Below, piece after piece: positions 2,058 through 33,000 of a stretch of DNA of 43,472 bases (positions within the stretch are counted from its first letter, which is position 1; each line of letters begins with the position of its first letter). The notes under the pieces were generated by a model, which was not told where the DNA came from, ran no database searches, and worked only from the letters and a program-made list of their open reading frames with translations. The translations under genes and the position numbers were made by a program. The stretch comes from an uncultured Pseudomonadota bacterium (GTDB taxonomy: Bacteria > Desulfobacterota > Desulfobacteria > Desulfobacterales > Desulfobacteraceae): assembly GCA_937880875.1 (NCBI GenBank), contig CALGRI010000080.1:1-43472 (forward strand). The letters are read 5' to 3'.

Positions 2058-2562
2058 ACTTTTTCCCTGTAATAACGATATAAAAACTGCGCCATAAATT
2101 CGCCAGTTCCTGGAGTATGATCAATAAAGCCCCTATGGGAATCATCATTTTAATCGGATAAAGGGGCGCACGAAACGGTGTATTGCACGGTTCTAACCGC
2201 ATCATGGATGACCAGGCATAACGGGACCCGTACCATAACAATGCGCCGCAGAAAAAAAAGAAAAACACAAACCCGATAATATCCAGCACCGCCTGTGTCC
2301 GCATGGAAAAGCGAGTGTAAATCAAGTCCATGGAGATATGGTCCCGGTTAAGGCTGACATATGCCCCGCATATAAAATAATAAATTGCAAAGATACGCTG
2401 AGTTGTCCCGTGGGCCCAGATGGTAGGGGCATCAAAAAAATGTCTTGCCACGATTTCATATACCAGTACCGCCACACCGGGCCATAAAAGGTAAGCAAAG
2501 ATTACCCCAGACCACTTACTGATGCCATCAATGATTTTAAACAAGCGTTTCATTATTCCCAT
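2047..2562 (-). CDS. dctQ: TRAP transporter small permease (DctQ)
   Basis: 171 aa, four predicted TM segments, position between DctM and DctP, overlapping the DctM start. Confidence 0.88.
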   Translation of the reverse strand: MGIMKRLFKIIDGISKWSGVIFAYLLWPGVAVLVYEIVARHFFDAPTIWAHGTTQRIFAIYYFICGAYVSLNRDHISMDLIYTRFSMRTQAVLDIIGFVFFFFFCGALLWYGSRYAWSSMMRLEPCNTPFRAPLYPIKMMIPIGALLIILQELANLWRSFYIVITGKKYEY

Positions 2563-2664
2563 CTGCTTTTATATTTTTAAGATCGGACCCAGGACAGGAA
2601 CGCGCTGTCCCTGCCCTGAGTCCGGATTGTTATGAAACAAGTATAACCTTTTTGAATAAAAGAA

Positions 2665-5578: not shown

Positions 5579-6526
5579 TCAGTTTAGGGCAAAAGTATCG
5601 GGGAAATTGGAGGGCACAAAAGCATTCCTTGCTTTAAGCAGATGTCCTGACAATTCACGACCGGCAATCTTTTGTGCCAATTTGGCCGTTTCTGCAATTG
5701 CATCAATGTCGATACCGGTACTCACTCCAATTTGGTCGAACATGTAAACCAGGTCCTCTGTCGGCACATTCCAGGCACCGACTTCCATAACAGGCGCCCC
5801 GTAAGGCGTGCCGCTTAATCCGCTTATGGCTGTATCAAAAGTACGGATACCTGCTTCATAGGCGGCAAGACAGTTTACTAATCCCAACCCCATGGTGTTA
5901 TGAAAATGAACCGACAGATTTGTCTCAAGCTTGAGTTCCTGCAATGCAAAAACAGTCTCCTTAACCTGTTTGGGATTGACCCTTCCAGGTGTATCTATAA
6001 GAGAAATTTCATTAACTCCCAAAAAGGAAAGTTTGCTGACAAGCTCCACAAGGTTATTGATTGGAATTCTTCCTTCATATTGACACCAAAATGCAGAAGT
6101 TAGAAACGCTCTGACGGTCTTTCCTCTTTCCTTACAAGCCTGGATGATGGCCGGAATGGTTTTGAAAAGCGTTTTTTTAATAGTGGTACCCAGAAGGGCC
6201 ATGTTAAACGATTCGCTTCCGGCAATCATAACCCCGATTTCATCAACAGTGGTGTTTAATGCCCTACGGCAGGCAATTTCATTGGGCGTCATTCCAATAA
6301 GGGTGACCCCGGGCCTTTTGTCGATGGAATTGACAACCTTTTCAGCATCTGCATATTCAGGCCGGATACGGGGATGGGTAAAACCGACACAATCAATCTT
6401 AGTCACACCGCTTTCCATAAGGCTGTTTACAAGAGCGACTTTTTCGTGAGTACGTATTTTGGGCAACCCGACAGGTCCGTCTCTGGGACTGGTATCAACA
6501 ATTGTAACTTCTGCAATTGATTTCAA
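5579..6526 (-). CDS. HMG-CoA lyase-like DRE-TIM metallolyase (catalytic-loop Cys replaced)
   Basis: 315 aa; VDTSPRDG, HFHNTMGLGLVNCLAAYEAG, FDTAISGLSGTPYG...PTEDLVYM align with the HMGL family. Confidence 0.85.
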   Translation of the reverse strand: MKSIAEVTIVDTSPRDGPVGLPKIRTHEKVALVNSLMESGVTKIDCVGFTHPRIRPEYADAEKVVNSIDKRPGVTLIGMTPNEIACRRALNTTVDEIGVMIAGSESFNMALLGTTIKKTLFKTIPAIIQACKERGKTVRAFLTSAFWCQYEGRIPINNLVELVSKLSFLGVNEISLIDTPGRVNPKQVKETVFALQELKLETNLSVHFHNTMGLGLVNCLAAYEAGIRTFDTAISGLSGTPYGAPVMEVGAWNVPTEDLVYMFDQIGVSTGIDIDAIAETAKLAQKIAGRELSGHLLKARNAFVPSNFPDTFALN

Positions 6527-8296: not shown

Positions 8297-10432
8297 ATGA
8301 CATCTGAGTTATCAAAATTATTAGCACCTGAATCTGTAGCGATTATCGGGGTTTCTGAAAGCCCGACACGAATTGGAGGACGGTTATTCAAGTATCTGGC
8401 CAAACATGGATATAAAGGGGAACTGGCCCTGGTGAATCCAAAATATCAAGAACTCAACAATGTTAAATGTTATCCAACTATTTCAGATGTCCCCATGAAA
8501 ATAGATTGTGCCCTTGTTGCAGTACCGGGCAAATTTGTTCTACCTGTATTAAATGAATGTGCCGATAACAATGTGGGTTCTGCTGTTATTTTCAGCTCCG
8601 GGTTTGCCGAAATGGGTCATGATGGGAAAAAAGCCCAGGATAAACTCAAAGAACTGGCCAAAACAAAAAATATGAGAATCTGCGGACCAAACTGCATCGG
8701 ACTGGTTAATTTCAATGATAATACAGTGCTTTCTTTTTCACAGTTTTTGGAAACTGACTCCCTCATTCCGGGGAATATAGGATTTATTTCCCAAAGCGGT
8801 GCTTTGGGCGGGTCAATGGCCAACCGTGCCCAGGATAACTCTATCGGGTTAAGCTATTTTATTTCCAGCGGTAATGAGGCAGACCTTGAAGTATCTGATT
8901 ATATAAAACACCTGGTACTCCATGACAAAAATACAACGGTTATAGCAGCCGTCATCGAAGGGTTCAAGGATGGTACAAAATTTATAGAAGCGGCTGAACT
9001 TGCCCTTGAGCATGGCAAACCCATCATTGTTTTAAAAATCGGAGAGACCGAAGTCGGTAAAAAAGCTGCTGCTTCCCATACAGGCTCCCTGGCCGGCTCT
9101 GATTCCGTTATTGATGCCGTGCTGAACCAGAAGGGTGTTATCCGGGTCCGAAACTACGATGAATTGTTTCAAACCGCGTCCCTGTTTTCGAAAAACCGGA
9201 TACCAAAAGGGAACAGGCTCGGTATCCTGAGCAGTTCCGGAGGGGCGGGTATAATCATGGCAGATCTTTATACCAAACTAGGGCTTACTGTACCTGAACC
9301 ATCGAAAAAAACCATAGAGCTTGCTTCAAAAGAAATGGCTTCCTTTGGGCAGGTGGCCAACCCCTTTGATCTGACCGGTCAAATCTTTAGTGATCCTGAA
9401 ATGTTTAAACGGTGTTTTAATTATTTTATCAATGATGAAAACTTTGATATTATCCAGATCAACATGTCCATGGTTGCGGGACAAGGAAGTGTTAACAGGG
9501 CATTGCAACTGCTTGAAGTAGTTAAAGACAGCAAAAAACCCGTGGTTGCCTGGTGGGCTGCCGGTAGCTTGTCCGATCCTGGAATACAAATATTGAATAA
9601 GAGCGAAGTTGCATCTTTTAAGTCTCCGGACAGGTGTGCCGCCGCCGTAAATGCGCTGGTTAAATACCATCTTACTGTCCAAAAAGCAGCCGAAGAAACC
9701 AAAGATTGCGATACGCCTAATTTGTCAATTGATCGAAAGCTCGCAAAGAAAATACTGGATACGGCCGATACAAGCCTTAGTGAGCACGATAGTAAAGCAT
9801 TATTGGAACTTTACGGCATCCCCGTAACCAAAGAAAAAATAGTTAATTCTGTGGAAGATGCAGTCAATTTTGCGGAACAAGTCGGTTTCCCAGTGGTATT
9901 GAAAATTGATTCCCCTGACATCCTGCACAAAACAGAGGCAGATGTAATCAGGCTTGGTATTAATTCCCCAAAGGATATTGCAAAATCCTATGAAGAAATA
10001 ATGGACAATGCCACCCGTTATAATCCCGAGGCCAGGATTAACGGGGTGGCTGTCCAGGAAATGGTTATTGGCGGCACAGAAGTTATTGCCGGCATGTCTC
10101 AGGACCCTCAATTCGGCCCAATCATTGCTTTCGGACTGGGAGGAATTTTTGTCGAAGTATTAAAAGACATCTCTTTGCGCATTATTCCGCTATCAAAATC
10201 AGAAGCCAAAAAAATGGTACAGCAGATAAAAGGGTATCCTATTTTAGAGGGTGTGCGCGGCAGGTCCCGCGCTGATATTGAAGCTGTTGAAGATCTATTA
10301 TCAAGACTTTCCCGATTAACCGAAGACTGGAAAGATTATATTGCTGAGATTGATATCAACCCCTTGATCGTCCTTGACCAGGGCCGTGGCGTAAAAGCCC
10401 TTGATGCCCTTGTTGTTCTCAAGAAAAAATAA
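8297..10432 (+). CDS. ADP-forming acyl-CoA (acetyl-CoA-type) synthetase, fused alpha-beta
   Basis: 711 aa; N-terminal CoA-binding domain (ESVAIIGVSESPTRIGGR), phospho-His region AAASHTGSLAGSD, C-terminal ATP-grasp domain (GFPVVLKIDSPDILHKTEADVIRLGI). Confidence 0.92.
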   Translation: MTSELSKLLAPESVAIIGVSESPTRIGGRLFKYLAKHGYKGELALVNPKYQELNNVKCYPTISDVPMKIDCALVAVPGKFVLPVLNECADNNVGSAVIFSSGFAEMGHDGKKAQDKLKELAKTKNMRICGPNCIGLVNFNDNTVLSFSQFLETDSLIPGNIGFISQSGALGGSMANRAQDNSIGLSYFISSGNEADLEVSDYIKHLVLHDKNTTVIAAVIEGFKDGTKFIEAAELALEHGKPIIVLKIGETEVGKKAAASHTGSLAGSDSVIDAVLNQKGVIRVRNYDELFQTASLFSKNRIPKGNRLGILSSSGGAGIIMADLYTKLGLTVPEPSKKTIELASKEMASFGQVANPFDLTGQIFSDPEMFKRCFNYFINDENFDIIQINMSMVAGQGSVNRALQLLEVVKDSKKPVVAWWAAGSLSDPGIQILNKSEVASFKSPDRCAAAVNALVKYHLTVQKAAEETKDCDTPNLSIDRKLAKKILDTADTSLSEHDSKALLELYGIPVTKEKIVNSVEDAVNFAEQVGFPVVLKIDSPDILHKTEADVIRLGINSPKDIAKSYEEIMDNATRYNPEARINGVAVQEMVIGGTEVIAGMSQDPQFGPIIAFGLGGIFVEVLKDISLRIIPLSKSEAKKMVQQIKGYPILEGVRGRSRADIEAVEDLLSRLSRLTEDWKDYIAEIDINPLIVLDQGRGVKALDALVVLKKK

Positions 10433-10936: not shown

Positions 10937-11812
10937 ATGAATAACTTTGAATACTTTGCAGCAAGTGATGTAAAGGAAGCCTGTTCTTTACTCTCCCGGT
11001 ACGGAGAAGAAGCCAAGGTTCTCGCAGGAGGCCAATCCCTGGTCAGTATGATGAAACAAAGATTGGTCATGCCATCATACCTCATCGATGTAAAAGGAAT
11101 TTTGGAACTTGACTATATCCGGTACGATGAAAAGGAAGGGTTGAAAATCGGAGCATCGACCACACACCGGTCCATTGAAAAATCCCCCCTTATCAGGGAA
11201 AAATTTCCCATGTTGTCGGATATGGAACTCAATCTGGCATCAATGGCAGTAAGGAATTGGGCGACTGTTGGCGGTAACCTGTGCGGTGCTGATCCGGCCT
11301 CGGATCTTGCTCCTTGCCTCATGGCACTAGGAGCCCAGGTTACACTGGCCTGCGCAAGCGGGGAACGGATGGTATTGCTTGAGGATTTTATATTTGATTC
11401 CTTTGAAACTATGCTCAGGGAAGATGAAATAATGACTCAAATCCAGGTGCCGGCCAAAGCAGCCAGAAGCGGTGGGATCTACACAAAGTTTGCCCGGCGG
11501 GCCACGGATCTGGGTATTGCAAGTGTGGCAGCGCATCTAACCCTGGATGAGTCAGACCCGGACATGTGTAAAGATATTCGTATTGTTTTAGGGGCAGTTG
11601 ATACATATCCCCATCGATATAAACGAGCCGAGGATCTTATCAAAAAAAAGAAAATCAATGACGCTGTTATTGAAAAAGCGGCCCAGGCTGTTTTTGAAGA
11701 TTGCCAACCGACTTCTGATACAAACGGTACTGAGGAGTACAAGCGGGAAATAGCTCGTGTTCTGGTAATAAGGAATATCAAAGAAGCGATTGCCCGGGCC
11801 AGGTCTCTTTGA
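10937..11812 (+). CDS. Xanthine dehydrogenase family, FAD-binding subunit (set 1)
   Basis: 291 aa; VLAGGQSLVSMMKQRL, ATVGGNLCGADPASDLAPCLMALGA. Confidence 0.92.
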   Translation: MNNFEYFAASDVKEACSLLSRYGEEAKVLAGGQSLVSMMKQRLVMPSYLIDVKGILELDYIRYDEKEGLKIGASTTHRSIEKSPLIREKFPMLSDMELNLASMAVRNWATVGGNLCGADPASDLAPCLMALGAQVTLACASGERMVLLEDFIFDSFETMLREDEIMTQIQVPAKAARSGGIYTKFARRATDLGIASVAAHLTLDESDPDMCKDIRIVLGAVDTYPHRYKRAEDLIKKKKINDAVIEKAAQAVFEDCQPTSDTNGTEEYKREIARVLVIRNIKEAIARARSL

Positions 11813-11906
11813 TTACAGAGCGCGGTTGCAGGATCATGTTTGACAAAAAAGATTAATTTTTTGATATTTTCTGAAAATTACAATACGGCAAAAGAGGAGA
11901 TTTAAT

Positions 11907-12383
11907 ATGGAGCGTATGAGTTTAACCGTCAATGGCGAGACCATTGAAACCCAAATTAATCCAGGAACAACACTGCAAAAATTTTTACACGATACCCTGG
12001 GATTAACAGGTACCAAAGAAGGCTGCGGCGAAGGATTGTGCGGATGCTGCACCGTGCGGGTAGACGGAAAAGCTGTTAAATCATGTATTATTCTTGCACT
12101 TCAAGTGAATGGGAAGAGTGTTCAAACAATAGAAGGGCTTGCCAAGGGAGAAACACTGGATCCGGTTCAAGAGGCATTTCTTGATCATGGTGCGTTTCAA
12201 TGCGGGTATTGCACACCCGGTATGATTATGACCAGCAGATCATTCCTGGATGAAAATCCCGCTCCATCAGAAAAAGAAATCAGATACGCCCTTTCAGGAA
12301 ACCTTTGCCGTTGCACCGGATACCATAAAATTGTAAAGGCTGTCCTCAGTGTTGACCCTAAAAAAGAAATAGTTGCCAAATAA
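11907..12383 (+). CDS. Xanthine dehydrogenase family, 2x[2Fe-2S] subunit (set 1)
   Basis: 158 aa; GCGEGLCGCCTV, QCGYCTPGM, GNLCRCTGY. Confidence 0.94.
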   Translation: MERMSLTVNGETIETQINPGTTLQKFLHDTLGLTGTKEGCGEGLCGCCTVRVDGKAVKSCIILALQVNGKSVQTIEGLAKGETLDPVQEAFLDHGAFQCGYCTPGMIMTSRSFLDENPAPSEKEIRYALSGNLCRCTGYHKIVKAVLSVDPKKEIVAK

Positions 12384-12396
12384 GGAGTTCTCACAC

Positions 12397-14838
12397 ATGA
12401 AAGTAAAAAATGAACATGAGTATAATAATGATTATGAATATATCGGAAAGCCTGAACGTAATGTAAACGGTGTGGAAAAAGTCACAGGAGCAGCAAAATT
12501 CTGTTCAGATATAGAGCGTTCCAGGATGCTTTACGGTAAAGTTAAACGAAGCCCCTACCCCCATGCCAGGATTATTTCCATTGATACCTCTAAAGCAAAA
12601 GTACTGCCGGGTGTCAAGGTGGTTATCGTGGGTGACGAAGAAACCGCCCCCCTTCGTTTTGGGGCCGGTGTTGCCGATGAATATGTTCTTGCCCGGGGTA
12701 AAGTGCTATATGTCGGGGATGCCGTTGCGGCTGTTGCTGCAGAAACCGAGGAGATTGCTGAGGCGGCTGTGGACCTCATAGAGGTGGAATACGAGGAACT
12801 TACCCCTGTGTTTGACGGTGATGAGGCTTTCAGCCAAAATCCGCCTGCTATTCTTCATGAAGATTTGAAAAATTATACCACGATTCGATCAGTCCCGCCA
12901 AGGTATGCAGACAAGCGTCCCAATGTTTTTAACTACTTCAGGATCAGACGGGATTACGACAAAAATGCATTCAAAGATGCAGACATTGTTCTGGAGAACC
13001 GGTTTGAAGTGGCCATGATCCATCATGTCCAGATGGAACCGCATTGCGGGGTTGCCGAAATTGACGGGACAGGAAGACTCACGGTAACAGGAACAACGTC
13101 AAAACCTTATGGCATGCACCGGGATATTTCCGAATCAAGAAGGATGCCGTCATCCACTGTAAGAGTCATTGTTCCCACCCATGTGGGCGGCAGCTTTGGG
13201 GGCCGCGAGCCAAAGGCGGAACAGATTGCTGCCTCACTGGCTCTTGCCCAGAAAGGGTTTCCCAAACGGCCTGTTAAAATGTGGCTTACAAGAGAGGAGC
13301 AGCTGATGACCAGCACAACCCGGGCGAGATATATTGTAGAAATCAAGACCGGTGCCAAAAAAGACGGGACATTGGTGGCCAATGAAATGACAACCATTCT
13401 TGTGGGCGGGGCATACGCAGGGACTGGCTATCTGACCGCAAGAAACGGCTCTTTTGGACCTGCTGCAAATTATAAAATCCCTCATTTTAAACTGGATGCC
13501 TACGGCGTTTATACCAATCAGCGAATGGCAGGTGCATTCCGTGGGTTTGGAAATGCTGAAACGCTTTGGGGTATGGAATGTAATATGGACATGATCGCCG
13601 AAAAATTAAACATAGACCCTTTAGAATTCAGACTCATGAACTGTACTGATGAGGGGGATTTGAATGCTTTTCAGGAAAAAATGCACAGCGTTGGCGCAAA
13701 AGAATGTCTTCAGGCTGCGGCCCGGGACATTGAATGGGGAAAGAAACCTGAAAGCCCAAAAGAACCCTACTTAAAAATGGGTAAAGGCATAGCCCTTGGT
13801 AACAAATATAGTCTTGTACCGACTGCCTCGGCATGCTTTGTTAAAGTGCACCCGGACGGAAGGGTAGAATTAAGGACCAGTACTGTAGAGCTCGGCCAGG
13901 GATCAAATACCATCTTTTCCCAGATGATTTCGGAAGAATTCAAAATCCCGGTTTCAAAAGTTAGGGTCTTGAATCCAGATACTGATTGTACACCATTTGA
14001 CCTGGGTACTGCCTCGAGCCGCTCTACATTTAATATGGGCAATGCCATCCGCAAGGCATGTGCAGATGCAAAAAAACAATTGTTTGAAATTGCAGCCAAG
14101 GAACTTGATGTTTCTGTAGATCTTCTTGTAACTGCCCAATCCAGAGTTTTTGTAAAAGATGATCCGGAAAAAAGCCTTGATATCAGTGAATTATTCATTC
14201 CCATGGTTATCGGCGGTTATACCTTAAAAGAAGGTGGAGAAATCCTTGGTAAAGCAACTTATTACCTTCCCGGGGTCATGCCTGACCCCGAGACAGGCAA
14301 ATCATCAAGGCCGGCATCATTTTATATGTTTGTTGCCCAGGCTGCTGAGGTTGAAGTCGATATCCAGACCGGTAAAATCAAGGTAACAAAGATGGTAACG
14401 GCAAATGACTGCGGAAAAGCCATGAACCCGATAATGGTTGAGGGTCAACAGGATGGCGGAGTTCTCAGCATGGGAATCGGAAGCGCCTTGCTTGAGGAGG
14501 TTATTGTAGATAACGGTGTCATGCTAAACCCACAGTTTGCTGATTACAAAATTCCCACAACACTGGACTGCCCAGATTGTGACAATTATAAGTCTGCCAT
14601 TATCGAAACAGCCCATAGGGAAGGCCCTTGGGGGGCTAAAGGTGTTGGAGAAGGTACAATGGTATCAAGTGCACCTGCTATTGCCAATGCTATCTACGAT
14701 GCCATTGGTATCAGGTTCCATGAGATCCCCATTACCCCTGAAAAAGTTCTTGCAGCATTAAAGGAAAAAGAAAAATCAGGGAGGGCTACATTCGGAGGAA
14801 ACCATGATAAACGACTTTCAGATATGGAAAACAAATAA
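12397..14838 (+). CDS. Xanthine dehydrogenase family, molybdenum cofactor-binding subunit (set 1)
   Basis: ATG at 12397 follows AAGGAG, so it is preferred over the TTG at 12373; VGGSFGGRE, AGAFRGFG, ELGQGSNT, GPWGAKGVGEG. Confidence 0.93.
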   Translation: MKVKNEHEYNNDYEYIGKPERNVNGVEKVTGAAKFCSDIERSRMLYGKVKRSPYPHARIISIDTSKAKVLPGVKVVIVGDEETAPLRFGAGVADEYVLARGKVLYVGDAVAAVAAETEEIAEAAVDLIEVEYEELTPVFDGDEAFSQNPPAILHEDLKNYTTIRSVPPRYADKRPNVFNYFRIRRDYDKNAFKDADIVLENRFEVAMIHHVQMEPHCGVAEIDGTGRLTVTGTTSKPYGMHRDISESRRMPSSTVRVIVPTHVGGSFGGREPKAEQIAASLALAQKGFPKRPVKMWLTREEQLMTSTTRARYIVEIKTGAKKDGTLVANEMTTILVGGAYAGTGYLTARNGSFGPAANYKIPHFKLDAYGVYTNQRMAGAFRGFGNAETLWGMECNMDMIAEKLNIDPLEFRLMNCTDEGDLNAFQEKMHSVGAKECLQAAARDIEWGKKPESPKEPYLKMGKGIALGNKYSLVPTASACFVKVHPDGRVELRTSTVELGQGSNTIFSQMISEEFKIPVSKVRVLNPDTDCTPFDLGTASSRSTFNMGNAIRKACADAKKQLFEIAAKELDVSVDLLVTAQSRVFVKDDPEKSLDISELFIPMVIGGYTLKEGGEILGKATYYLPGVMPDPETGKSSRPASFYMFVAQAAEVEVDIQTGKIKVTKMVTANDCGKAMNPIMVEGQQDGGVLSMGIGSALLEEVIVDNGVMLNPQFADYKIPTTLDCPDCDNYKSAIIETAHREGPWGAKGVGEGTMVSSAPAIANAIYDAIGIRFHEIPITPEKVLAALKEKEKSGRATFGGNHDKRLSDMENK

Positions 14839-14855: not shown

Positions 14856-15743
14856 ATGGCATACCAGGAAACAGTCTCAGTCGCCTGTGTTAATTTTTGC
14901 CCCGAATGGGGAGACAAGGCAGCTAATTTGTCAAAAATTAAGGCCTTTTCAAAACAGGCGGCAGATCAGGGCAATAATATTATCATTTTCCCGGAACTTG
15001 CCCTTACCGGCTATGAATGCGGTGAGATGACTGATCCAGATGGCAAATCCTGTGGTATGCATAAAAAAATGGCTGAGACGATTCCAGGACCTAGCACTTG
15101 CGAGATCAAAGACCTGGCCCGAAAACTGGATGTTTATATTATTTTTGGAATGCCGGAAAAAGATATAACCCACCCGGACATCCTTTATATTTCATCGGTT
15201 ATTGTTGGTCCTGAAGGGCTGTTGGGCACCTATAGAAAACTGCACCTTGCCCCTCTGCCCCGGTTTACAGAGAGTCTTTGCTTTACACCGGGAAATGAAA
15301 TCCCGGTCTTTGAAACCCGGTACGGGACCATTGGTATTCTCATCTGTTTTGATTTTTACTTTTACCCTGAACTGGCACGGATTATGGCCCTGAAAGGGGC
15401 TGATTTGCTTGTAAATACCTCGGCCAGCGCCACAGGTCCCGGCAAACCTTACTTCATCGTACAGCAGACCGGAAGCCGGGCAACGGAAAACTGTGTCTAT
15501 GCCGCCAGTGCAAACCTGGTCGGAAAGGAGCGGTCAAACTCTTATTATGGACACAGCGTTATTGCAGGCCCCCTCACCCCCAGGCCGGCCTTCATTTTTG
15601 CCGAGGGGGGGGAAACCGAAGAAATCGTCAGTGCCACACTCAGTTTAAAAAAACTTCGTGTCCGAAAAGAACAGCTCAATTGGCAAAAAGACCGTCAAAC
15701 TGAATTGATTAACGCAGAACTTGCCCGTTTAAAGAATAATTGA
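14856..15743 (+). CDS. Carbon-nitrogen hydrolase (nitrilase superfamily)
   Basis: 295 aa; Glu (FPELALTGYECG), Lys (YRKLHLAP) and Cys (GILICFDFYFPE-like ILICFDFYFYPE) triad regions present. Confidence 0.9.
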   Translation: MAYQETVSVACVNFCPEWGDKAANLSKIKAFSKQAADQGNNIIIFPELALTGYECGEMTDPDGKSCGMHKKMAETIPGPSTCEIKDLARKLDVYIIFGMPEKDITHPDILYISSVIVGPEGLLGTYRKLHLAPLPRFTESLCFTPGNEIPVFETRYGTIGILICFDFYFYPELARIMALKGADLLVNTSASATGPGKPYFIVQQTGSRATENCVYAASANLVGKERSNSYYGHSVIAGPLTPRPAFIFAEGGETEEIVSATLSLKKLRVRKEQLNWQKDRQTELINAELARLKNN

Positions 15744-15828: not shown

Positions 15829-17538
15829 ATGAAAAACAAAGTTGTCAGTATACGCCAGGCGATTGAGGAACATATAAAGCCGGGAATGGCCCTGTACATA
15901 GGTCTTGAGGCCGGAGCCGCAGCCCGGGAGCTTGCCAGAACATTCTGGGGCAAAAAAGCAGACTTCACACTGATCATGAACATGATAGGCGGACACCACG
16001 CCCTAAGCCTGATTCATGGCCAACTCGTGAAAAAACTGATTTTTACCAACTGTGCCGATATTTTTCCAAGACCCTATCCCAATCCTGTTATCCAAAGGGC
16101 TTTTAAAGAAAAAACCATTGAACTTGAAAACTGGTCCATGCTCTCTTTGATCCAGGCTTTGCAGGCTGGTGCTTTAAATCTTCCCTATGCAGTGACACGT
16201 TCAATTATCGGCAGCAGCCTGGCCCAGGAGAACTCTGATTCCTTTAAGATTGCCGACGACCCTTTTGGAACGGGTGAAAAAATAGGCCTTATTAAAGCTT
16301 TGAACCCGGACATTTCTATCATTCACGGATGGGCTGCAGACCCCCAGGGTAATTTGATCATGGCGGCTCCACCCAGGGATGCATGGGGGGCTAAGGCAAG
16401 CCGCAAAGGTATCATCGTCACTGTGGAAAAACTGGTGTCCGAGGATTTCATCAGAAAACATTCCATGCTGGTCAAAATCCCGGGTAGCCTTGTCAATGCT
16501 GTGTGCGTAGCTCCCAGGGGAGCTCATCCCCAAAACCTGAATGCTCAGAGCCTGCCTGAATTTGAAGGGTATGGCCTGGACAAAGAATTTCTTAAAACGC
16601 TTAGAAAGGCAAGTGAAAATGCAGAAACTCTGGAGCAATGGGTGCAAGAGTGGGTCCTTGAAGGAGGCACCCATGAAGAATACCTGGCCAAGCTGGGATT
16701 GCAGACCAATAGTTCACCACCCAATTCTCTTAAGGACAATCCGGCCATGGTGATTGAAACCAATGGAATAATTGAAAACAGGGAAGAAAACCCTCCCACA
16801 CCCAGCGAGCATGCAATTATTGCAGGGGCTCGGGAAATCAGGGATTTGATCTTAAAAAACAATTATAAAACCATGTTTGCCGGGATAGGTATATCAGGTC
16901 TGGCAGGCTGGTGTGCCTATTATTTATTAAAAGAACAAGACTACCACATTGATCTGATTGCAGGCGGTATCGGCTATCAGCCTTGTCCGGGAGATCCCCT
17001 GCTCATCAGTCCTGCCAACATGGCCACCGCAAAAATGATTTCCGACAGTTTTGACGTGCACGGTGTCAGTGCCGGCGGAATCAACAGCGGCTGCATTGGC
17101 GTCCTGGGGGCCGGGCAACTGGACAAAGAAGGCAATATCAATTCCACAGTTATCAGAAACACGTCCAAGGGGGATATTTATCTTTCAGGCGCAGGTGGAG
17201 GTAATGACATTGCAAGCGTAACCAGGGAAGTCGTGATCGTCGCTGTCCAGAGGGCCAACCGCCTGGTTGAAAAGGTGTCTTATATCACCTGTCCGGGTAC
17301 GCGGGTTGGCACCCTTGTTACCAATGAAGGCGTTTATGTAAAAAATGGCACGGATTTTGTGCTTAAGGGATATTTTCCAACACCAGACTCTTCTTTTGAA
17401 GAAAGAATCAATGAAATTAAAGAAACCTGCGGATGGGCGCTTCGAACCTTACCGCGAATGGAAATACTGGCTTCTCCGACCCAGGAGGAACTGAACCTGG
17501 TACGATCTTTTGATCCTGAAAAAGTGTTTATCAAATAA
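15829..17538 (+). CDS. Fused alpha/beta family-I CoA-transferase-like protein (canonical beta-subunit Glu apparently absent)
   Basis: 569 aa; N-half GctA-like, C-half with GAGQLDKEGNINSTVI, SGAGGGNDIA, TCPGTRVG typical of GctB. Confidence 0.82.
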   Translation: MKNKVVSIRQAIEEHIKPGMALYIGLEAGAAARELARTFWGKKADFTLIMNMIGGHHALSLIHGQLVKKLIFTNCADIFPRPYPNPVIQRAFKEKTIELENWSMLSLIQALQAGALNLPYAVTRSIIGSSLAQENSDSFKIADDPFGTGEKIGLIKALNPDISIIHGWAADPQGNLIMAAPPRDAWGAKASRKGIIVTVEKLVSEDFIRKHSMLVKIPGSLVNAVCVAPRGAHPQNLNAQSLPEFEGYGLDKEFLKTLRKASENAETLEQWVQEWVLEGGTHEEYLAKLGLQTNSSPPNSLKDNPAMVIETNGIIENREENPPTPSEHAIIAGAREIRDLILKNNYKTMFAGIGISGLAGWCAYYLLKEQDYHIDLIAGGIGYQPCPGDPLLISPANMATAKMISDSFDVHGVSAGGINSGCIGVLGAGQLDKEGNINSTVIRNTSKGDIYLSGAGGGNDIASVTREVVIVAVQRANRLVEKVSYITCPGTRVGTLVTNEGVYVKNGTDFVLKGYFPTPDSSFEERINEIKETCGWALRTLPRMEILASPTQEELNLVRSFDPEKVFIK

Positions 17539-17552: not shown

Positions 17553-19508
17553 ATGTCAAAGACACACTTCCCACATCTTTTTAAAAAAGGGAAAATAGGA
17601 AACTTTACCACAAAAAACCGTATCGTCATGCTTCCCATGGCCAGACAGTTCCAAGGTATGAATGGTGAAGTCACCCAGAAAACCATTGATTATTTTGCTG
17701 AAAGGGCCAAGGGAGGCGTGGGATTGATCATCATTGGTTCCACAAGGATTTTCCCCCCGGGACATAAATTCTATACTCCAGCCTCCTTAAATTTGAGTGC
17801 CCCCCAGTTTATTCCCGGTCATTGTGAGCTTGTCCAGGCCCTGCATGCCCATGGAGCTAAAGTCAGCATCCAGTTCGGCCATATCGGCGGGCAGACACAT
17901 ATGCAGAGTGTGGCGGCTTCCAATGTTCAGCAGTTATTTTGTGACGGGACCCCATATACCAAACCCATTCCCATTACAAGAAGTGAGATCTGGGACACCA
18001 TTGATCTGTTTGCCAAAGGTGCTGTCATGGCAAAAACAGCCGGCTATGACATGGTTGAAATCCATGCAGCCCACGGATATCTGCTTGGCAGCTTCCTTTC
18101 CCCCTTTCTCAATACCCGGAAAGATGAATTTGGTGGATCCCTTGAAAACCGAACCCGGTTCCATGTAGAAATGCTAAAGGCGATTAAAACCCAGGCCGGT
18201 GATGATTTCCCTGTTACCGTTCGCATCAGTGCCCTTGATTACCTTGACAATAGTATTAACCTGGCTGAATCCTGCCAGGTTGCAAAAATCCTGGAAGCTG
18301 CCGGGGCAGATGTTATCAGTGTTTCTGCAGGATGTCATGAAACACAGCATCTATCCAACGACACCATGCGAATGGAAGAAGATTTTAAACGGCCGCTTTT
18401 TGAAGCCATTAAAAAAGCGGTAAAAATTCCTATTATCGTTGCCGGTGGATATCGAAACCCGGACGTAAGTGAGAAAATTGTCTCTGACGGGATAGCTGAT
18501 TTCCTTGGAATAGCAAGACCCCTTCTGGCTGATCCCCAATGGCCCCAAAAAGCAGCTCAGGGCAAAGTGGATGACATCAGGAAATGCCTGTCATGCGGAG
18601 AGTGTCTGTACATCAGAGGAGGTGCCTTTAATTATCCCCAGAGCTGTGCCGTCAATGCAGTTTTTGGCAGGGAGAAGGACTGGACCGAGATTGTACCTGC
18701 ACAGAGAAAAAAGAAAGTCATGGTTATCGGCGGTGGTCCGGCCGGCATGGAAGCGGCAAGGGTGGCATCTTTGAGGGGGCATTCCGTATCCTTATATGAA
18801 AAGGGAGGGGAACTTGGCGGACAGCTCCTGCTGGCATCAAAGCCTCCCGGAAAAAAGAGAATGCTCTGGCTGCGGGACTATCTTGCAAACCAGATTGAAA
18901 AAACAGGCGTGAACATCAAGTTCGGTGTCGAAGTCACACAAGAACTCATTGCCGCTGAGAACCCTGATGAAATTATCATGGCTACAGGTGCCATCCCCAA
19001 ACAGATCGACATACCCGGAAGCGAGACCAACAATATTGTGCTTGCCTGGGATGTTCTTCGTGGGGAAGTCCCTCTGAAAAACCAGAAGGTCGCTGTTATC
19101 GGAGGCAGTATGCTTGCCTGTGAAACAGCTGAACTTATCGCATCCTGGGACAATGAAGTGGCTGTGGTCAAAATGCGCCCCGGATCTTATATGGCAGAAG
19201 ACTGTGAGCCTACCAACAGAAGGGGCATAATGGAATTTATGCAGGAGCATAAGGTCAGGGAGATTACCGATCATAAACTTGAAAAAATTACCGGCACGGG
19301 TGTTGACCTTATAGATAATGAATCGGGTAAAACTGTTTGTGTTAAAGCTGAGGTCATCGTTCTGGCCCTTGGTTCAACACCTGTACAGGGTCTTGCAGAT
19401 GTCTTGGAAAAACAAGAGATACCCTTCACCATGATCGGTGACTGCACCACGCCTAAAAATATTAAACAGGCGATTTATCAAGGAGCACTTATCGGACGTC
19501 AGGTATGA
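17553..19508 (+). CDS. NADH:flavin oxidoreductase / 2,4-dienoyl-CoA reductase-like ene-reductase (FMN, 4Fe-4S, FAD)
   Basis: 651 aa; OYE barrel (EIHAAHGYLLGSFLSPFLN), CLSCGEC-x13-C cluster, GGGPAGMEAARVA dinucleotide-binding motif. Confidence 0.92.
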   Translation: MSKTHFPHLFKKGKIGNFTTKNRIVMLPMARQFQGMNGEVTQKTIDYFAERAKGGVGLIIIGSTRIFPPGHKFYTPASLNLSAPQFIPGHCELVQALHAHGAKVSIQFGHIGGQTHMQSVAASNVQQLFCDGTPYTKPIPITRSEIWDTIDLFAKGAVMAKTAGYDMVEIHAAHGYLLGSFLSPFLNTRKDEFGGSLENRTRFHVEMLKAIKTQAGDDFPVTVRISALDYLDNSINLAESCQVAKILEAAGADVISVSAGCHETQHLSNDTMRMEEDFKRPLFEAIKKAVKIPIIVAGGYRNPDVSEKIVSDGIADFLGIARPLLADPQWPQKAAQGKVDDIRKCLSCGECLYIRGGAFNYPQSCAVNAVFGREKDWTEIVPAQRKKKVMVIGGGPAGMEAARVASLRGHSVSLYEKGGELGGQLLLASKPPGKKRMLWLRDYLANQIEKTGVNIKFGVEVTQELIAAENPDEIIMATGAIPKQIDIPGSETNNIVLAWDVLRGEVPLKNQKVAVIGGSMLACETAELIASWDNEVAVVKMRPGSYMAEDCEPTNRRGIMEFMQEHKVREITDHKLEKITGTGVDLIDNESGKTVCVKAEVIVLALGSTPVQGLADVLEKQEIPFTMIGDCTTPKNIKQAIYQGALIGRQV

Positions 19509-19614: not shown

Positions 19615-20823
19615 ATGGGTGACTTACCACTTGAAGGATACCGGGTAATTGATTTTGGCTGGGCTGCTGCCGCACCACGGGCAACCTGTCTCTTGGCAGA
19701 CATGGGCGCCCAGGTTATTAAGGTGGAAACACGCAAGCGCCTTGACCCTGTCAGGTTCGGCCCCGACAATATCGAACGGGACCCGGAAAAGGACCCGCTG
19801 TTTCATAGTATAAACAGGAATAAACTGGGCATCCTTTTAGACCTGACCCGGCCTGAAGGCAAAACACTCATCCGGGACTTGATAAAAAAAAGTGATGTCG
19901 TGGTAGAAAACTTCTCCCCGGGCGTGATGAAAAGACTCTCTTTAGATTATGATGAATTAAAGAAACTGAAAAAAGATATTATCATGATTTCTTTTCCAGG
20001 CGTGGGCAGCGAGGGGCCTTTGTCGGATGTGGTCACCTACGGCCCGTCACTTGCTGCACTTTCAGGGCTGGACAATCTGATCGGATATGAAGGCGAACGG
20101 GTCTTAGGAATGCAGCAGGCCTATGCTGATATTAATTCCTCCCTTTTCGGTGCTTTTGCCGTTCAAATTGCATTATACCATCGTGAAAAATATAAAGAAG
20201 GCCAGCACATAGAGGTTGCCCAGATGGAATCCTTGTTGAGCACCATGCCGGAACCGATGATGGAATACAGTTTTAATAATCGCAATTTAACCTCCGTGGG
20301 CAATAACAACACTATGATGGCTGTTCACAACAATTACCCCTGCATGGGAGAAGACAAGTGGGTATCCATCGCCATTCTGACGGATGTGGAATGGAAATCT
20401 TTTTGTTCGGCCTTAGGAGATCCCTCCTGGACACAGGAAGATGAGTTTGCAGATAACCACAAAAGAAGAGTGAACCGCAAAAAACTCGATCAACTCATTG
20501 GCGAATGGACCCTGACAAAGACGTCTTATGAAGTCATGGGAATTCTTCAGAATGCAGGTGTTGCCGCAACTCCATGTGCCGATACCGAAGACCGGTTTTC
20601 AGACCCTCATCTTCAGGAACGTCAGAATATTGTCAATATTGAACACCCCGTAACAGGACTTGACTTTGTTCCCAATGTTGTCTGCAATTTGAGTGAAACA
20701 CCCGGTCAAATCAGAAGACCGGCACCCATGTTAGGCGAGCATAATCATTATGTTTACGGAGAAATTTTGGGACTGCCTAGAGAAAAAATCGAACACTATA
20801 TAGAAGAAAAAATTATTTATTAA
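19615..20823 (+). CDS. CaiB/BaiF family-III CoA-transferase
   Basis: 402 aa; YRVIDFGWAAAAPRATCLLADMGAQVIKVE, NRNKLGILLDL, catalytic-Asp region YADINSSLFGAF. Confidence 0.92.
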   Translation: MGDLPLEGYRVIDFGWAAAAPRATCLLADMGAQVIKVETRKRLDPVRFGPDNIERDPEKDPLFHSINRNKLGILLDLTRPEGKTLIRDLIKKSDVVVENFSPGVMKRLSLDYDELKKLKKDIIMISFPGVGSEGPLSDVVTYGPSLAALSGLDNLIGYEGERVLGMQQAYADINSSLFGAFAVQIALYHREKYKEGQHIEVAQMESLLSTMPEPMMEYSFNNRNLTSVGNNNTMMAVHNNYPCMGEDKWVSIAILTDVEWKSFCSALGDPSWTQEDEFADNHKRRVNRKKLDQLIGEWTLTKTSYEVMGILQNAGVAATPCADTEDRFSDPHLQERQNIVNIEHPVTGLDFVPNVVCNLSETPGQIRRPAPMLGEHNHYVYGEILGLPREKIEHYIEEKIIY

Positions 20824-20839: not shown

Positions 20840-22207
20840 ATGCAAGTTGATACGATTATAAAAAACTGTAAAATTGTCAGGCATGACGGAATTCTGGATG
20901 CCGGATTGGCCATTGAACGTGGGAAAATAGTTGCCCTGGCAAAGGAATCCGAACTGCCGGATGCCAAAACTATTATAGATGGCAAGGGAAACTTTGTCAT
21001 TCCCGGGATCGTGGATGCCCATGTTCATCTTCAGTATCCACCGGGTATTGATCCTGAATCAAATATCCGGGCTGAAACCCGGGCCTGTGCGGCAGGCGGA
21101 TGCACCACCCTGATACACTTGCTGGCGCCGGCAGACAATATTAAAGACCAGGCAAAGGAATTTGTCGGACTCTATGAAAAAAATGCCTATGTCGACCTTG
21201 CTTTAAGTGCACGGATTTATACCCGAGAAAATATAAGTCAAATCAGTGAGATATATGATTACGGGATTAACAGTGTCAAACTTTTGCTCCCTTACAAGGG
21301 AAGTGAAGCCGTCTGGAAAGGACGTTCCGGAGGTATAGATGACGGCATTGTTTATCTGACCTTTAAAGAGGTCGCAAGGCTGGCCAGACAGGGGCGTGAC
21401 ATATTTGTCAGAGTCCACTGTGAAAACGTGGAAATCTTTCTTGGGATAAAGAATGAATTTTTAGAACAGGGATTGGAGCCAGGCTCCTGGAATGAGGTAA
21501 GAACAAGGGTTTGTGAACAGGAATCCATGCAGAAATGCCTCTATCTGGCCGAAATAACCGGATGCCCTATCTATGTTGTCCATATGACCATTAAAGAAGG
21601 CCTGCAGCTTTTGACAAAAGCCAAAGCCCAGGGCGTAAATGTGATGACTGAAACCTGTGTCCAATATTTAACGCAGAACACGGATAATGTTGATCCGATC
21701 CTTTCCAAGGTCAACCCGCCCATCCGTGAGTCCGAAGATAACGAAAAACTCTGGGAAGCATTAAGAAACGGCAGCATTGATGTGGTTGCCACAGACCACG
21801 CCCCGGTCCCAAAATCAATGAAGCAAAATTTCTGGGATGCCACACCCGGCATGCCCGGCTCAGAAACCTTTTTGCCCCTGATGCTCAGTGAAGGGGTAAA
21901 CAAAGGACGAATTTCTCTGGAACGACTCGTTGATGTCTGCTGCTACAGCCCGGCTCGAAAATTCGGCCTTGCCCCCCGAAAAGGAGTTCTGGATATCGGT
22001 TCTGATGCAGATCTGGTGTTAATTGATCTTGAAAAAGAGGATATTGCACTGGAAAATCCAATGTATTCCAACAGCGATTTTTCAACCGTGGCAGGGAAAA
22101 AAATCAAAGGGTGGCCGACTCTGACCATGCTGAGGGGAAAAATTGTTGTCAAGGATCAAAAAGTAACCGGTGAAAGCGGATATGGCAGGTATGTACCGGG
22201 CCAATAG
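20840..22207 (+). CDS. Dihydropyrimidinase/dihydroorotase-like cyclic amidohydrolase
   Basis: 455 aa; VDAHVHL, candidate carbamylated Lys in VKLLLPYKG, HCEN, VHMT, ATDHAP. Confidence 0.9.
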   Translation: MQVDTIIKNCKIVRHDGILDAGLAIERGKIVALAKESELPDAKTIIDGKGNFVIPGIVDAHVHLQYPPGIDPESNIRAETRACAAGGCTTLIHLLAPADNIKDQAKEFVGLYEKNAYVDLALSARIYTRENISQISEIYDYGINSVKLLLPYKGSEAVWKGRSGGIDDGIVYLTFKEVARLARQGRDIFVRVHCENVEIFLGIKNEFLEQGLEPGSWNEVRTRVCEQESMQKCLYLAEITGCPIYVVHMTIKEGLQLLTKAKAQGVNVMTETCVQYLTQNTDNVDPILSKVNPPIRESEDNEKLWEALRNGSIDVVATDHAPVPKSMKQNFWDATPGMPGSETFLPLMLSEGVNKGRISLERLVDVCCYSPARKFGLAPRKGVLDIGSDADLVLIDLEKEDIALENPMYSNSDFSTVAGKKIKGWPTLTMLRGKIVVKDQKVTGESGYGRYVPGQ

Positions 22208-22290
22208 AAAAGACCATACCCTGTTAATTTAGATAACTATGAATAATAAATGTTTTAGATCATTAATAAGATAAACCTAAGGAGATAGTG

Positions 22291-23187
22291 ATGAGTTCAG
22301 ACACAATTACGTCAGAAACACTGATTTATGAAAAAAAAGATTATGAAGAGGGGTCAGTTGCTACCCTGCAATTTAACAAACCGCATACCATGAATGCATT
22401 GAATATTGAATTCAGCAAGGAAATCGATGCTGCCCTGGATCAAATTGAACAGGATGACGATGTAAAGGCCGTCGTTTTTAAAGGCTCTGGAAATGCATTC
22501 TCTTCCGGATATGATCTTGGGCGTGTCTATTTTGTTTACGGTGGTGGCTCGGGAAAACCCAAAGACGACACCCGGCGCCCCAGCCAGAGAGCCCGGCTGG
22601 CATATGACAAATGGCGTGCGGAAAGCCTTCGCAGAATATTCTTCATGGACAAGATCACCATTGCACAGGTTCATGGATATTGTATCGGCGGCGGTCTATA
22701 CATGTCCCTTTGCTGTGATATGACAGTCTGTTCCGAAGATGCCAAGATCGGCCATGCTGAACAGAGACTCGGTTTTGCAGGGTCCATGTATGTATTTCCG
22801 ATTCTCATGAGCCTGATCGGCCAGAAAAAAGCAAGGGAAATGCTGCTCACCGGAAAACTGCTGGACGGGATAGAAGCGGAAAGAATCGGTCTTGTTAATA
22901 CAGTTGTACCGCTGGACCAGCTTGACGAGGAGGTCAGAAAACTGGCTGAATCCATGACCCTTCTCCCCCGTGACGGTATTGCCATAGGCAAGGCCTGTGC
23001 GAGACTGGCATATGATTCCATGGGACTGACCTCCGCCTTTGGACAGGGATATCTTGGACATACCATGTTCACCAACACAAGATTTGAGGAAGGCGAGTAC
23101 AATTTCCTCAGACGACGAAGGGATGTCGGAGTGAAAGAGGCCATCAAGGAAAGGGACGCTCGTTATAATAGAATTTTTGATAAATAG
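22291..23187 (+). CDS. Enoyl-CoA hydratase/isomerase (crotonase) family protein, atypical active site
   Basis: ATG at 22291 after AAGGAG; FSSGYDLG, GYCIGGGLYMSLCCDM, IGHAEQRLGF. Confidence 0.85.
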   Translation: MSSDTITSETLIYEKKDYEEGSVATLQFNKPHTMNALNIEFSKEIDAALDQIEQDDDVKAVVFKGSGNAFSSGYDLGRVYFVYGGGSGKPKDDTRRPSQRARLAYDKWRAESLRRIFFMDKITIAQVHGYCIGGGLYMSLCCDMTVCSEDAKIGHAEQRLGFAGSMYVFPILMSLIGQKKAREMLLTGKLLDGIEAERIGLVNTVVPLDQLDEEVRKLAESMTLLPRDGIAIGKACARLAYDSMGLTSAFGQGYLGHTMFTNTRFEEGEYNFLRRRRDVGVKEAIKERDARYNRIFDK

Positions 23188-23322: not shown

Positions 23323-24180
23323 ATGGAAACTTTTGAATATATCAAACCCAAAAGTATGGATGATGCCATAAATGCGTTGAATACATATGAAAATGCCTTT
23401 TTGCTGGCCGGAGGAACTGATCTTTTGGTGGGCATGAAGTACAATTCCATTAAACCTGAGTGCATCGTAGACATAAAAGAAATACCCCGGATGAATACGT
23501 TTGAATTCATTGACGGGTGGCGGTTTGGGGCTTTGGTTACCGTCCGGGATATTGAGGTCTCAGACAGGCTCAAACAAACAATGCCCTTTCTTAACCAGAC
23601 TGCAAAAGCGCTGGGGTCAATTCAAATCAGAAACAGAGCCACCATTGGTGGAAACCTGTCCAATGCGTCTCCCTGTTCAAATTTCGGAGCAATGTTCCTG
23701 GCAATGGATGCAATGCTCAAAATTATTTCAAAAAATGGGGAACGGCAGATAGCTTTACAGGACTTTTTTTGCGGACCGAACCAGACAGTCTTGAAAAAAG
23801 GTGAAATATTGACTGAGATCAGGGTCCCGGAAGATGCAGGTCGGGCTGAAGGAATATTTTTAAAACATTCTGCAGGCAAATCCAATGATTTGGGCCTGGT
23901 GAATATTGCCATTACCCTGCACAGAGAGCCTATCACTAACTTGTGTAAGAAAATAGCCATTGCAATGGGAGCTGTTGCTCCGACCCCCATCCGGGCAAAA
24001 AAGGCTGAAGCAATTTTGAACAATAATATTTTGACACCTGATTTGATTGTAAGAGCAGCAAAAAAAGCATCAAACGAGGCAACTCCCATTTCAGATTTCA
24101 GAGCTTCGGCAGACTATAGAAGATCTTTGATTGCAACAATGGTTGCAAAGGGAATCAATACGCTTATTAAAGCTTCGTGA
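23323..24180 (+). CDS. Xanthine dehydrogenase family, FAD-binding subunit (set 2)
   Basis: 285 aa; LLAGGTDLLVGMK, ATIGGNLSNASPCSNFGAMFLAMDA. Confidence 0.92.
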   Translation: METFEYIKPKSMDDAINALNTYENAFLLAGGTDLLVGMKYNSIKPECIVDIKEIPRMNTFEFIDGWRFGALVTVRDIEVSDRLKQTMPFLNQTAKALGSIQIRNRATIGGNLSNASPCSNFGAMFLAMDAMLKIISKNGERQIALQDFFCGPNQTVLKKGEILTEIRVPEDAGRAEGIFLKHSAGKSNDLGLVNIAITLHREPITNLCKKIAIAMGAVAPTPIRAKKAEAILNNNILTPDLIVRAAKKASNEATPISDFRASADYRRSLIATMVAKGINTLIKAS

Positions 24181-24234
24181 TGTATTGAGATTTAAAACGA
24201 ACTCAATTATTGCAAATAAAGGGAGAACTTTAAC

Positions 24235-24714
24235 ATGATAAAAAAATATCCGGTTCGGGTCAATGTAAACGGTGACGATTATGAAGTTCTGGTTGACCCG
24301 AGAACGACATTGCTCCAATTTTTACGGGAAGACCTTGATTTAACAGGAACCAAGGAAGGATGTGATGAAGGAGATTGCGGAGCCTGTTCCGTCATCCTCA
24401 ATGATAAGGTCATAAGTTCCTGCCTGGTTTTGGCCGTGGAAGTTGATAATGCCGTAATCGAGACCATTGAAGGGGTAAAAACAGGGGAAGAACTGCATCC
24501 GGTCCAGCAGGCCTTTGTGGACAGCGGGGCCATCCAATGCGGTTTTTGTACACCCGGAATGGTCATCACAACAAAAGCCATGCTCCAGGAGATGCCGAAT
24601 CCCTCAACCCGGGAGGTTAAAGAGTATTTAGCAGGAAACCTGTGCCGGTGCACCGGCTATGTTAAAATTCTTGATGCCGTTGAAAACGCCAAAGAAAAAT
24701 TAAAAAATGGATAA
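24235..24714 (+). CDS. Xanthine dehydrogenase family, 2x[2Fe-2S] subunit (set 2)
   Basis: 159 aa; GCDEGDCGACSV, QCGFCTPGM, GNLCRCTGY. Confidence 0.94.
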   Translation: MIKKYPVRVNVNGDDYEVLVDPRTTLLQFLREDLDLTGTKEGCDEGDCGACSVILNDKVISSCLVLAVEVDNAVIETIEGVKTGEELHPVQQAFVDSGAIQCGFCTPGMVITTKAMLQEMPNPSTREVKEYLAGNLCRCTGYVKILDAVENAKEKLKNG

Positions 24715-24730
24715 GAAGGGGGCACTTACA

Positions 24731-27003
24731 ATGAACAATTACTCTGTGATCGGAAAACGGATCAAAAACATGGATGCCGTGACCAAGGTTACAGGCAAGG
24801 CTGTTTTTGCTGCAGATATAAAGTTAAAAGGAATGCTCTACGGCAAAATTCTCAGATCCAAGGTGGCCCATGCCAGAATCTTGAGCATTGATGTTTCAAA
24901 GGCCCGGCAACTTAAAGGTGTAAAGGCGGTTATCACCTGTGAAGATACCCCCTTGATAAAATACAGCATTCATCCTTTAATGGCTGACAAACTTGCATTT
25001 GAAGATAAGAAAGTCAGACATGTAGGTGATGAAATAGCAGCGGTAGCTGCCATTGATGAAGAGACTGCTGCCAAGGCAATCTCTTTGATTAAAGTTGAAC
25101 TGGAAGAACTTGAAAGCGTCTTTGACCCAGTCGAAGCAATGAAAGCAGGGGCGCCTGATATCCATGATCATGTTGAAAATAATATCTCCAAACATTTTAA
25201 GATGGATTGCGGCGATATTGAACAGGGATTTGCAAAATCAGAATTTATAATAGAAAAAACATTTACCACCCATGCCCAGTCCCATTCCAGCATTGAAACT
25301 CATGTCTGTGTGGCAGATTACAACCCGGACCATCAGGTCACGGTGTGGGTCAATACCCAGGCACCTCACCCATTAAAGCATAGAATCTCCCAGGTCCTTG
25401 CCATTGAACCGGAAAAGATTCGTGTTATTCCGCCTTATATCGGTGGGGCTTTCGGTAGTAAAATTGATCTGGATACCACCCATGTTGCCTGCGTGCTGCT
25501 GTCAAAAAAAACGGGTCGACCGGTTAAAATAATCAACACACGTGAAGAGCAGTTCGCTGCAACAAGGATGCGACACCCATCCATTACTGAATTAAAGTTC
25601 GGGTTCAACCATGACGGGACCATAGTTGTAAAACAGGCAAAAGCAATCATTGACAATGGTGCCTATAACAGCCATGGCCCATCCGTCATGGGCTATCATA
25701 ACGTCATGTTTTCTTCACTTTATCGTGTTGAAAACATATCATATGAAGGTTTTCTTGTTTATACAAACAAGAATTACGGAGGAGCATGCCGGGGCTATGG
25801 CGATCCCCAGGCAACATTTGCCCAGGAAACAATGATGGACATGATTGCCGAAAAATTGAATATGGACCCCATAGAATTAAGACTGAAAAATGCTAATCAT
25901 CCGGATGAAAAGACGGCAAACGCCGTAGAAATAACAAGCTGCGGCCTGAAGGAAACCCTTGAAGCTGTTAAAAAAGCGTCCAACTGGTCCGAAAAAAAGA
26001 AGACCAAGCAAAAATATAGGGGCCTTGGCGTTGCATCCATGATCTATACCGGCGGCGGCAGCAGGGGGTCCGGGTTTAATTACTCTGGAGCCACTATGAA
26101 AATGGATGCTTCCGGAACTATCTTTTTGAACACGGGTGCCACGGATATCGGCCAAGGGTCAAATACCACGCTTACCATGATAGCTGCTGAAATACTCGGG
26201 ATGGAGCCGGAACAGATCCGGCTTATCACCTCTGATACAGATACCACATTGCCCTGCATGGGCACCTTTGGTTCCCGGGTGACGTTCTGTGCTGGAAATG
26301 CAGTGTCCCAGGCCGCCCTTAATCTCAAAGAAAAATTATATCCCAGGCCGCCGATATATTGGGGGAACCGGTTGAGCGCCTGGAGATCAAAGCGCGTAAT
26401 GTCTGTGTCGCACAAGAACCCGAAAAAGGGGTAGCTTTTTCTCAGATTGGTGCTGTTTCTTATTCCCAAAAGCAAGAGGTATTGACAGGGGCAGGATATT
26501 ATGACGGACCCGAGATCGCCAAGAATTTTGATCCGAAAAGCTATTATGCCTATCCAGGACCTGCCATGTCCTTTGCCACCCACCTGGCCGAAGTAGAAGT
26601 TGATCCTGAAAGCGGCCGGGTGGAATTAATCAATTTTTATGCGGCCCATGATTCAGGCAAAGTTATCAACCCGCTTTTGGCAGAAGGACAGATAGAAGGC
26701 GGTGCAGTCATGGGTTTTGGCTGGGCCTTAACCGAAGAGTTAAAATTTGACAACGGCAGAATACTGAACCCGAATTTTCATGATTATAAGCTTTTTTCCA
26801 TCAAGGACATCCCACAGATTACCCCGATACTGGTGGAAACCTGCGATCCTAACGGTCCTTTCGGGGCAAAAGGGTTGGGAGAATGTGCCATGGTTCCCAC
26901 AGCACCGGCAATTTTAAATGCCATTTACGACGCTGTGGGGGTAAGGATTTGTGACCTTCCTGCCACGTCAGAAAAAGTTTTTAACCATATTAAATCGAAA
27001 TAA
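24731..27003 (+). CDS. Xanthine dehydrogenase family, molybdenum cofactor-binding subunit (set 2), interrupted by a frameshift near 26340
   Basis: N-part in frame from 24731 (GGAFGSKID, GGACRGYGDPQ, DIGQGSNTT); C-part continues in another frame as SQAADILGEPVERLEIKA...GPFGAKGLGECAMVPTAPA. Together they form one full-length homologue. Confidence 0.85.
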
Positions 27004-32927: not shown

Positions 32928-33000
32928 TCCATATATAAAAATGAGCACTTGATCTCCATTTGGAGCGTTTGATAATAAATAAAGGGAAAATGAAAAAACA

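Follow-up and report, generated by a model that had tools for sequence, protein, structure and literature searches.

A single-chain GctA-GctB-like protein without the catalytic glutamate in a putative ring-degradation operon of an uncultured Desulfobacteraceae bacterium

Positions 15829-17538 of the 43,472-nucleotide stretch of DNA analysed here (contig CALGRI010000080.1, from an anaerobic marine lineage of sulfate reducers, and referred to as the window) encode a protein that, by its sequence matches, is a one-piece relative of glutaconate CoA-transferase (GCT) and belongs to a known fold family. Alignments and trees show that the ancestor of this fused family had the catalytic Glu, that one lineage lost it, and that the resulting Glu-less branch keeps a conserved, remodelled protein. 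The gene has been kept intact by selection despite the loss of the Glu, so the protein probably catalyzes a different reaction on CoA-bound intermediates of ring degradation.

The missing glutamate

The reading frame on the forward strand is real and complete, starts with ATG and specifies 569 amino acids. The Pfam model CoA_trans spans both halves of the protein in two stretches (4e-25). PDB matches connected residues 111-291 with GctA and residues 422-491 with GctB of Acidaminococcus GCT, and the family profile stretched both matches across the entire halves (Table 1). In the domain test for the GctAB family a GctA-like and a GctB-like domain were both present. With profiles of the fused family, GctAB chains scored far above chains of the acetyl-CoA hydrolase type (ThnP itself, discussed below, was outside this comparison). 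These matches bear out the fused GctA-GctB assignment made in a preliminary description of this DNA. With family profiles the best PDB match for both halves was GctAB of Acidaminococcus fermentans (PDB 1poi), which is similar in domain order and glycine loops but is composed of two subunits and has Glu54, whereas the window protein is a single chain without it. The unfused GctAB pairs encoded in the same genome (L002/L005 and L003/L004), which are 31-35% identical to the halves of the window protein, also differ from it in retaining the Glu (IIFEAGG and IFFETGA). A structure predicted from seven near relatives had a pLDDT of 48, too poor for inspection of the pocket, and was set aside.

Table 1. 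Features of the window discussed in the text (aa, amino acids)
Feature	Position	Strand	Basis or remark
ADP-forming acyl-CoA synthetase, head of conserved cluster	8297..10432	+
Molybdenum hydroxylase 1 (FAD, 2Fe-2S and Mo subunits)	10937..14838	+
Nitrilase-superfamily amidase, Glu-Lys-Cys kept	14856..15743	+	Linked with fused gene in L006, L007, L009, L011
Fused GctA-GctB-like protein without catalytic Glu	15829..17538	+	569 aa; ORF, Pfam, PDB and profile matches
GctA-like half, residues 1-295	15829..16713	+	Family-profile match to 1poi_A, E 1.6e-44; AibA, 3.7e-21; IpdA, 2.2e-20
Met104, aligned with IpdA residue (E in 6co6_A, A in 6coj_A)	16138..16140	+	PDB match and alignment
Lys189	16393..16395	+	Lys/Arg in 12/12 Glu-less proteins; mostly Met/Leu/Trp in Glu-bearing proteins
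GctB-like half, residues 324-569	16798..17535	+	Family-profile match to 1poi_B, E 5.5e-24
HIDLIAGG, residues 373-380, site of lost catalytic Glu	16945..16968	+	Profile and multiple alignments
His411, candidate new functional residue	17059..17061	+	His in 7/7 of deletion branch, Tyr in 5/5 of Gly branch, Leu/Met in 41/41 Glu-bearing proteins
Enoate reductase, BaiCD/FadH type (old yellow enzyme), directly downstream of fused gene	17553..19508	+
Class III (CaiB-type) CoA-transferase, conserved neighbour	19615..20823	+
Cyclic amidohydrolase, dihydropyrimidinase/hydantoinase type, presumed ring-opening enzyme	20840..22207	+	Metal-ligand motifs intact
Crotonase-family protein, conserved neighbour	22288..23187	+
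Molybdenum hydroxylase 2	23323..27003	+	Mo-subunit ORF in two frames in this assembly

The site of the catalytic residue was located by profile alignment, one column of which holds GctB Glu54, the Glu of the SCOT-type SEN motif and the Glu of the fused relatives. When a GctB profile of the genome's own two Glu-keeping proteins was aligned with AibB, the Glu column coincided with Cys56, a column marked by the deposited AibB variants 5n00-5n03 (A/N/S/V). The window protein has no Glu in this column, which contains the catalytic residue of family I CoA-transferases of the GctAB type; the preliminary description was thus right that the Glu is missing. It had also read HIDLIAGG as a replacement of Glu by Ile, and an ungapped match to GctB does put Ile377 in this place. 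Within the fused family, where most proteins have (A/V)E(I/L/V)G at the site, the best alignment with the fused relatives (LMAEIGMYGYLP) gives the window protein instead a two-residue deletion, LIA--GGIGYQP. In these alignments the loss is therefore best read as a deletion, and a clean Glu-to-Ile substitution, possible against GctB alone, is the poorer fit; the carboxylate is missing under both readings. LIA--GGIGYQP or its equivalent is present in the window protein and in six relatives (L006-L009, L011 and L015), and five other proteins carry Gly. Sequencing error or chance was ruled out, because the state is common to seven sequences from several independent assemblies and genera. Lacking the Glu, the window protein should be unable to form the enzyme-glutamyl-CoA intermediate through which family I enzymes classically transfer CoA.

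History of the fused family

The fused family is widespread in Desulfobacterota. Matches at 1e-60 or better, the threshold for which the counts are valid, were found in 18 of 292 genomes of the order, 24 of 395 of the phylum and 26 of 390 of the class, samples that overlap and include the genome studied here. Among the listed genomes of its own genus only two others hold the fused gene (94% identity), indicating that the cluster is accessory in the genus.

In a tree of 53 fused proteins, computed with the trait columns removed, 41 keep the Glu and 12 do not. The latter form a single clade (98/93) with the Glu-bearing proteins outside, and split into a deletion branch of seven proteins (100/99) and a Gly branch of five (96/86). 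A tree of the A half only also supported the deletion branch (100/97), and left the Gly branch unresolved. A single loss would be the simplest history. In the A-half tree the one-chain GctA-GctB proteins were monophyletic and separate from split GctA, AibA and IpdA (100/100); AibA fell outside them at the end of a long branch. Grouping of IpdA with the Glu-less fused proteins was rejected (AU p 0.0005, for the A half only and with long branches). Taking into account this rejection and the separation of the fused family from IpdA, the Glu was most likely lost in this clade independently of the loss in IpdAB. Genome G087 encodes two fused proteins, one of the Gly branch and one of the deletion branch, at a distance of about 8 kb (L057, 4214-5989 and 13664-15394), each near a pair of CaiB-type genes.

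Comparison of the window gene with its 94%-identical relatives L006 and L007 gave a dN/dS of about 0.12, a sign of purifying selection. Loss of the Glu inside a Glu-bearing family, combined with this value, makes classical ping-pong CoA transfer by the window protein unlikely. It also bears on the idea of a non-catalytic or structural remnant: the catalytic residue is indeed lost, but the protein is of full length and under selection, its operon position is conserved across genera, and its glycine loops and invariant residues are retained, all of which makes a remnant very improbable.

Several residues change with the Glu. Column 76 is Gly in all 41 Glu-bearing fused proteins and in none of the 12 Glu-less ones, and positions 76 and 411 switch together with the Glu without exception (for His411 and Lys189 see Table 1). 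Column 186 is Trp throughout the Glu-less clade. These changes are correlations inside one clade and do not represent independent events. Most of the fold is kept, together with the glycine-rich loop and the GAQxD..GN.N loop, as would be expected if the protein were an ordinary CoA-transferase or thioesterase using another carboxylate in place of Glu54. However, no acidic residue is found at or next to the lost-Glu site, no gain of one throughout the deletion branch was seen that could replace it, and the GSGGAN loop has turned into GAGGGN; we consider such an enzyme quite unlikely.

In the preliminary description a hydrolase rather than a CoA-transferase was proposed, with IpdAB as the model. 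The RHA1 IpdA chains read REMDEGMV in 6co6_A and REMDAGMV in 6coj_A, and we take the Glu/Ala position to be the catalytic Glu105 of IpdA. In the inspected fused proteins this column is mostly hydrophobic, with a few polar residues (Ser, Gln, Asn), and never acidic. Since the window protein has Met104 there, an IpdAB mechanism dependent on that residue is excluded. IpdAB (PDB 6co6, 6con) is nevertheless, as had been stated, an enzyme of the same fold that does not use the GCT Glu: Gly57 of IpdB occupies the column and no CoA-transferase activity was seen (PMC5380842). It differs from the window protein in its split subunits and in the IpdA residue aligned with Met104, and is not sister to the Glu-less clade. 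Of the original proposal, the part directed against CoA transfer is supported by the lost Glu, the purifying selection and the co-changed residues, whereas Met104 and the AU test leave the IpdAB-like part without specific support.

The surrounding operon

L007 and L011 share with the window the order nitrilase - fused protein - enoate reductase - CaiB - cyclic amidohydrolase - crotonase - molybdenum hydroxylase 2 - CaiB. It is partly kept in L006, L008 and L009, which are interrupted by contig ends or by missing or masked genes. The cyclic amidohydrolase is closest to hydantoinases (1gkr, 3.7e-73), and the Mo subunits of both molybdenum hydroxylases keep the GxGE motif. An aerobic CO dehydrogenase is not indicated for these cox-like genes; for both Mo subunits the top-scoring NCBIfam models were those of 4-hydroxybenzoyl-CoA reductase and xanthine dehydrogenase, with every score below the cut-off. 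The Mo subunit of hydroxylase 2 lies in two overlapping frames (24707-27003; 575 and 214 aa) and its L007/L090 counterpart is one ORF of 765 aa; the gene is either truly disrupted or misassembled at this point.

The operon probably opens the ring with C-N hydrolases (dihydropyrimidinase-like and nitrilase-like) after the action of the two molybdenum hydroxylases and the enoate reductase. Because the conserved operon holds both C-N hydrolases and CaiB, C-N ring opening and CoA activation would have enzymes of their own. In the pathway that these genes suggest, an N-heteroaromatic ring would be hydroxylated to a lactam or imide, reduced and opened at a C-N bond with release of ammonia, and CoA activation and beta-oxidation-like steps would follow. 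A comparable scheme operates in nicotinate degradation by Aspergillus, where an OYE-type reductase, cyclic imidase and amidase take part, although the latter two belong to other families than the enzymes of the window (PMC9304392). Literature searches for anaerobic degradation of nicotinate, homarine or cyclic imides by sulfate reducers yielded no direct report. L015, a distant member of the deletion branch, has its fused gene amid CaiB, crotonase and acyl-CoA ligase genes, and no homologs of the Mo hydroxylase, amidohydrolase or nitrilase were recognised near it in the 53 kb of contig covered, which suggests that the fused protein acts in that section of the pathway where CoA esters are handled.

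This assignment also speaks against the earlier suggestion that the fused protein itself opens a ring by hydrolysis, a step better attributed to the C-N hydrolases; none of the window genes was recognised as encoding a carbocyclic-ring reductase. An IpdAB-like hydrolase could still work with a base other than IpdA Glu105, such as His411, and use water to split a C-C bond in a cyclic or beta-oxo acyl-CoA by a retro-Claisen reaction. The strict conservation of His411 in the deletion branch and the crotonases of the BadI/MenB superfamily near the fused gene would fit such a reaction, as would the Glu loss in IpdB; weighed against Met104, the tree and the C-N ring opening, it is an unlikely explanation, though one to be taken seriously.

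CoA might also be moved intramolecularly and without the Glu. In a dicarboxylyl-CoA, the free carboxylate would attack the thioester of the same molecule to form a cyclic anhydride, and CoA would return to the other carboxyl. This has been proposed for ThnP, a family I enzyme with Gly in place of the Glu that shifts CoA intramolecularly and is encoded in an anaerobic ring-degradation operon of the naphthalene-degrading sulfate-reducing culture N47 (PMC11659651). In favour of such a reaction, dicarboxylates would arise in the predicted pathway, and CoA transfer is the background of the family. But ThnP is of the Cat1 subgroup and not of the GctAB type, its Glu-free mechanism is itself still a proposal, and the step could fall to any of the four CaiB-type CoA-transferases encoded in the window. 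We regard intramolecular transfer by the fused protein as rather unlikely.

Genes further out were also inspected. MttB-family methyltransferase homologs without internal stop (TIGR02369, below cut-off; 3821-5263 and 39114-40574, both on the minus strand) flank the ring-degradation genes, and a TRAP transporter is encoded at 741-3705. Speculatively, the growth substrate could be a pyridinium betaine or another compound with a quaternary N-methyl group. A second TRAP transporter follows the acyl-CoA ligase in L090 (15298-18236); at the corresponding place (31944-35400) the window encodes an EamA-family transporter and a further two CaiB-type proteins. An HMG-CoA-lyase-like gene (5579-6526, minus strand; 232.7 bits against a cut-off of 246) is divergent from the operon and conserved in L089.

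C-C bond cleavage as the favoured reaction

The reading that we favour, tentatively, is that the Glu-less fused protein is a CoA-ester enzyme that breaks a C-C bond in a carboxylated acyl-CoA, with AibAB-like decarboxylation as the likeliest reaction. Judged from the operon, it would act downstream of hydroxylation, reduction and C-N opening of the N-heteroaromatic compound, on an acyl-CoA that is supplied by the neighbouring CaiB-type CoA-transferase or by the acyl-CoA synthetases and that it would still bind. The C-C bond would then be cleaved, with the CoA-enolate stabilised in the old transferase pocket.

Decarboxylation is preferred because the N-ring is probably opened by other enzymes, because Gly-branch genes adjoin genes of the methylmalonyl-CoA mutase type, and because AibAB, the 3-methylglutaconyl-CoA decarboxylase of Myxococcus xanthus (5mzw), decarboxylates a carboxylated acyl-CoA on the same fold without the Glu and even tolerates the loss of Cys56 (PMC7756340). 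Mutase-type genes are located beside three of the five Gly-branch genes (L058, 5736-7400; L060, 2574-4752; L061, 9204-11290) whereas of 14 Glu-bearing regions a single one has them nearby; the gene of the mutase small subunit directly adjoins the fused gene in L060 and L061. Products of such enzymes are commonly decarboxylated. Counting against a decarboxylase, the mutase link is in the sister (Gly) branch and not in the window, and the window protein has no AibB-type Cys at the lost-Glu site. AibAB differs further in its split subunits and, for the A half, in its place outside the fused family. Moreover, the same genes would fit intramolecular CoA transfer or hydrolysis too, and the case for each of the three reactions is indirect.

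A broader proposal, which we hold to be unlikely, is that the Glu-less branch represents a new class of C-C-cleaving acyl-CoA enzymes that descends from a fused CoA-transferase and has an origin separate from those of IpdAB and AibAB. It would serve an undescribed anaerobic N-heteroaromatic pathway of sulfate reducers, in which the ring is doubly hydroxylated to a cyclic imide, reduced and opened at C-N bonds by imidase- and amidase-type enzymes; CoA activation would come next, and the Glu-less protein would then decarboxylate the product.

Those enzymes of the GCT fold that lack the Glu and have a known function carry out differing chemistry, namely hydrolysis, decarboxylation and the proposed anhydride-based CoA transfer. 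Here the tree places the loss within a family that otherwise bears the Glu, and many of its members can serve as controls, so that the step from CoA-transferase to another reaction is directly testable on tree neighbours; caution is also advisable where these genes are automatically annotated as CoA-transferases. Beside one of the Glu-bearing fused proteins (L072, 9786-12989), ORFs were noticed by eye that resemble a carboxylase and 4-hydroxybutyryl-CoA dehydratase.
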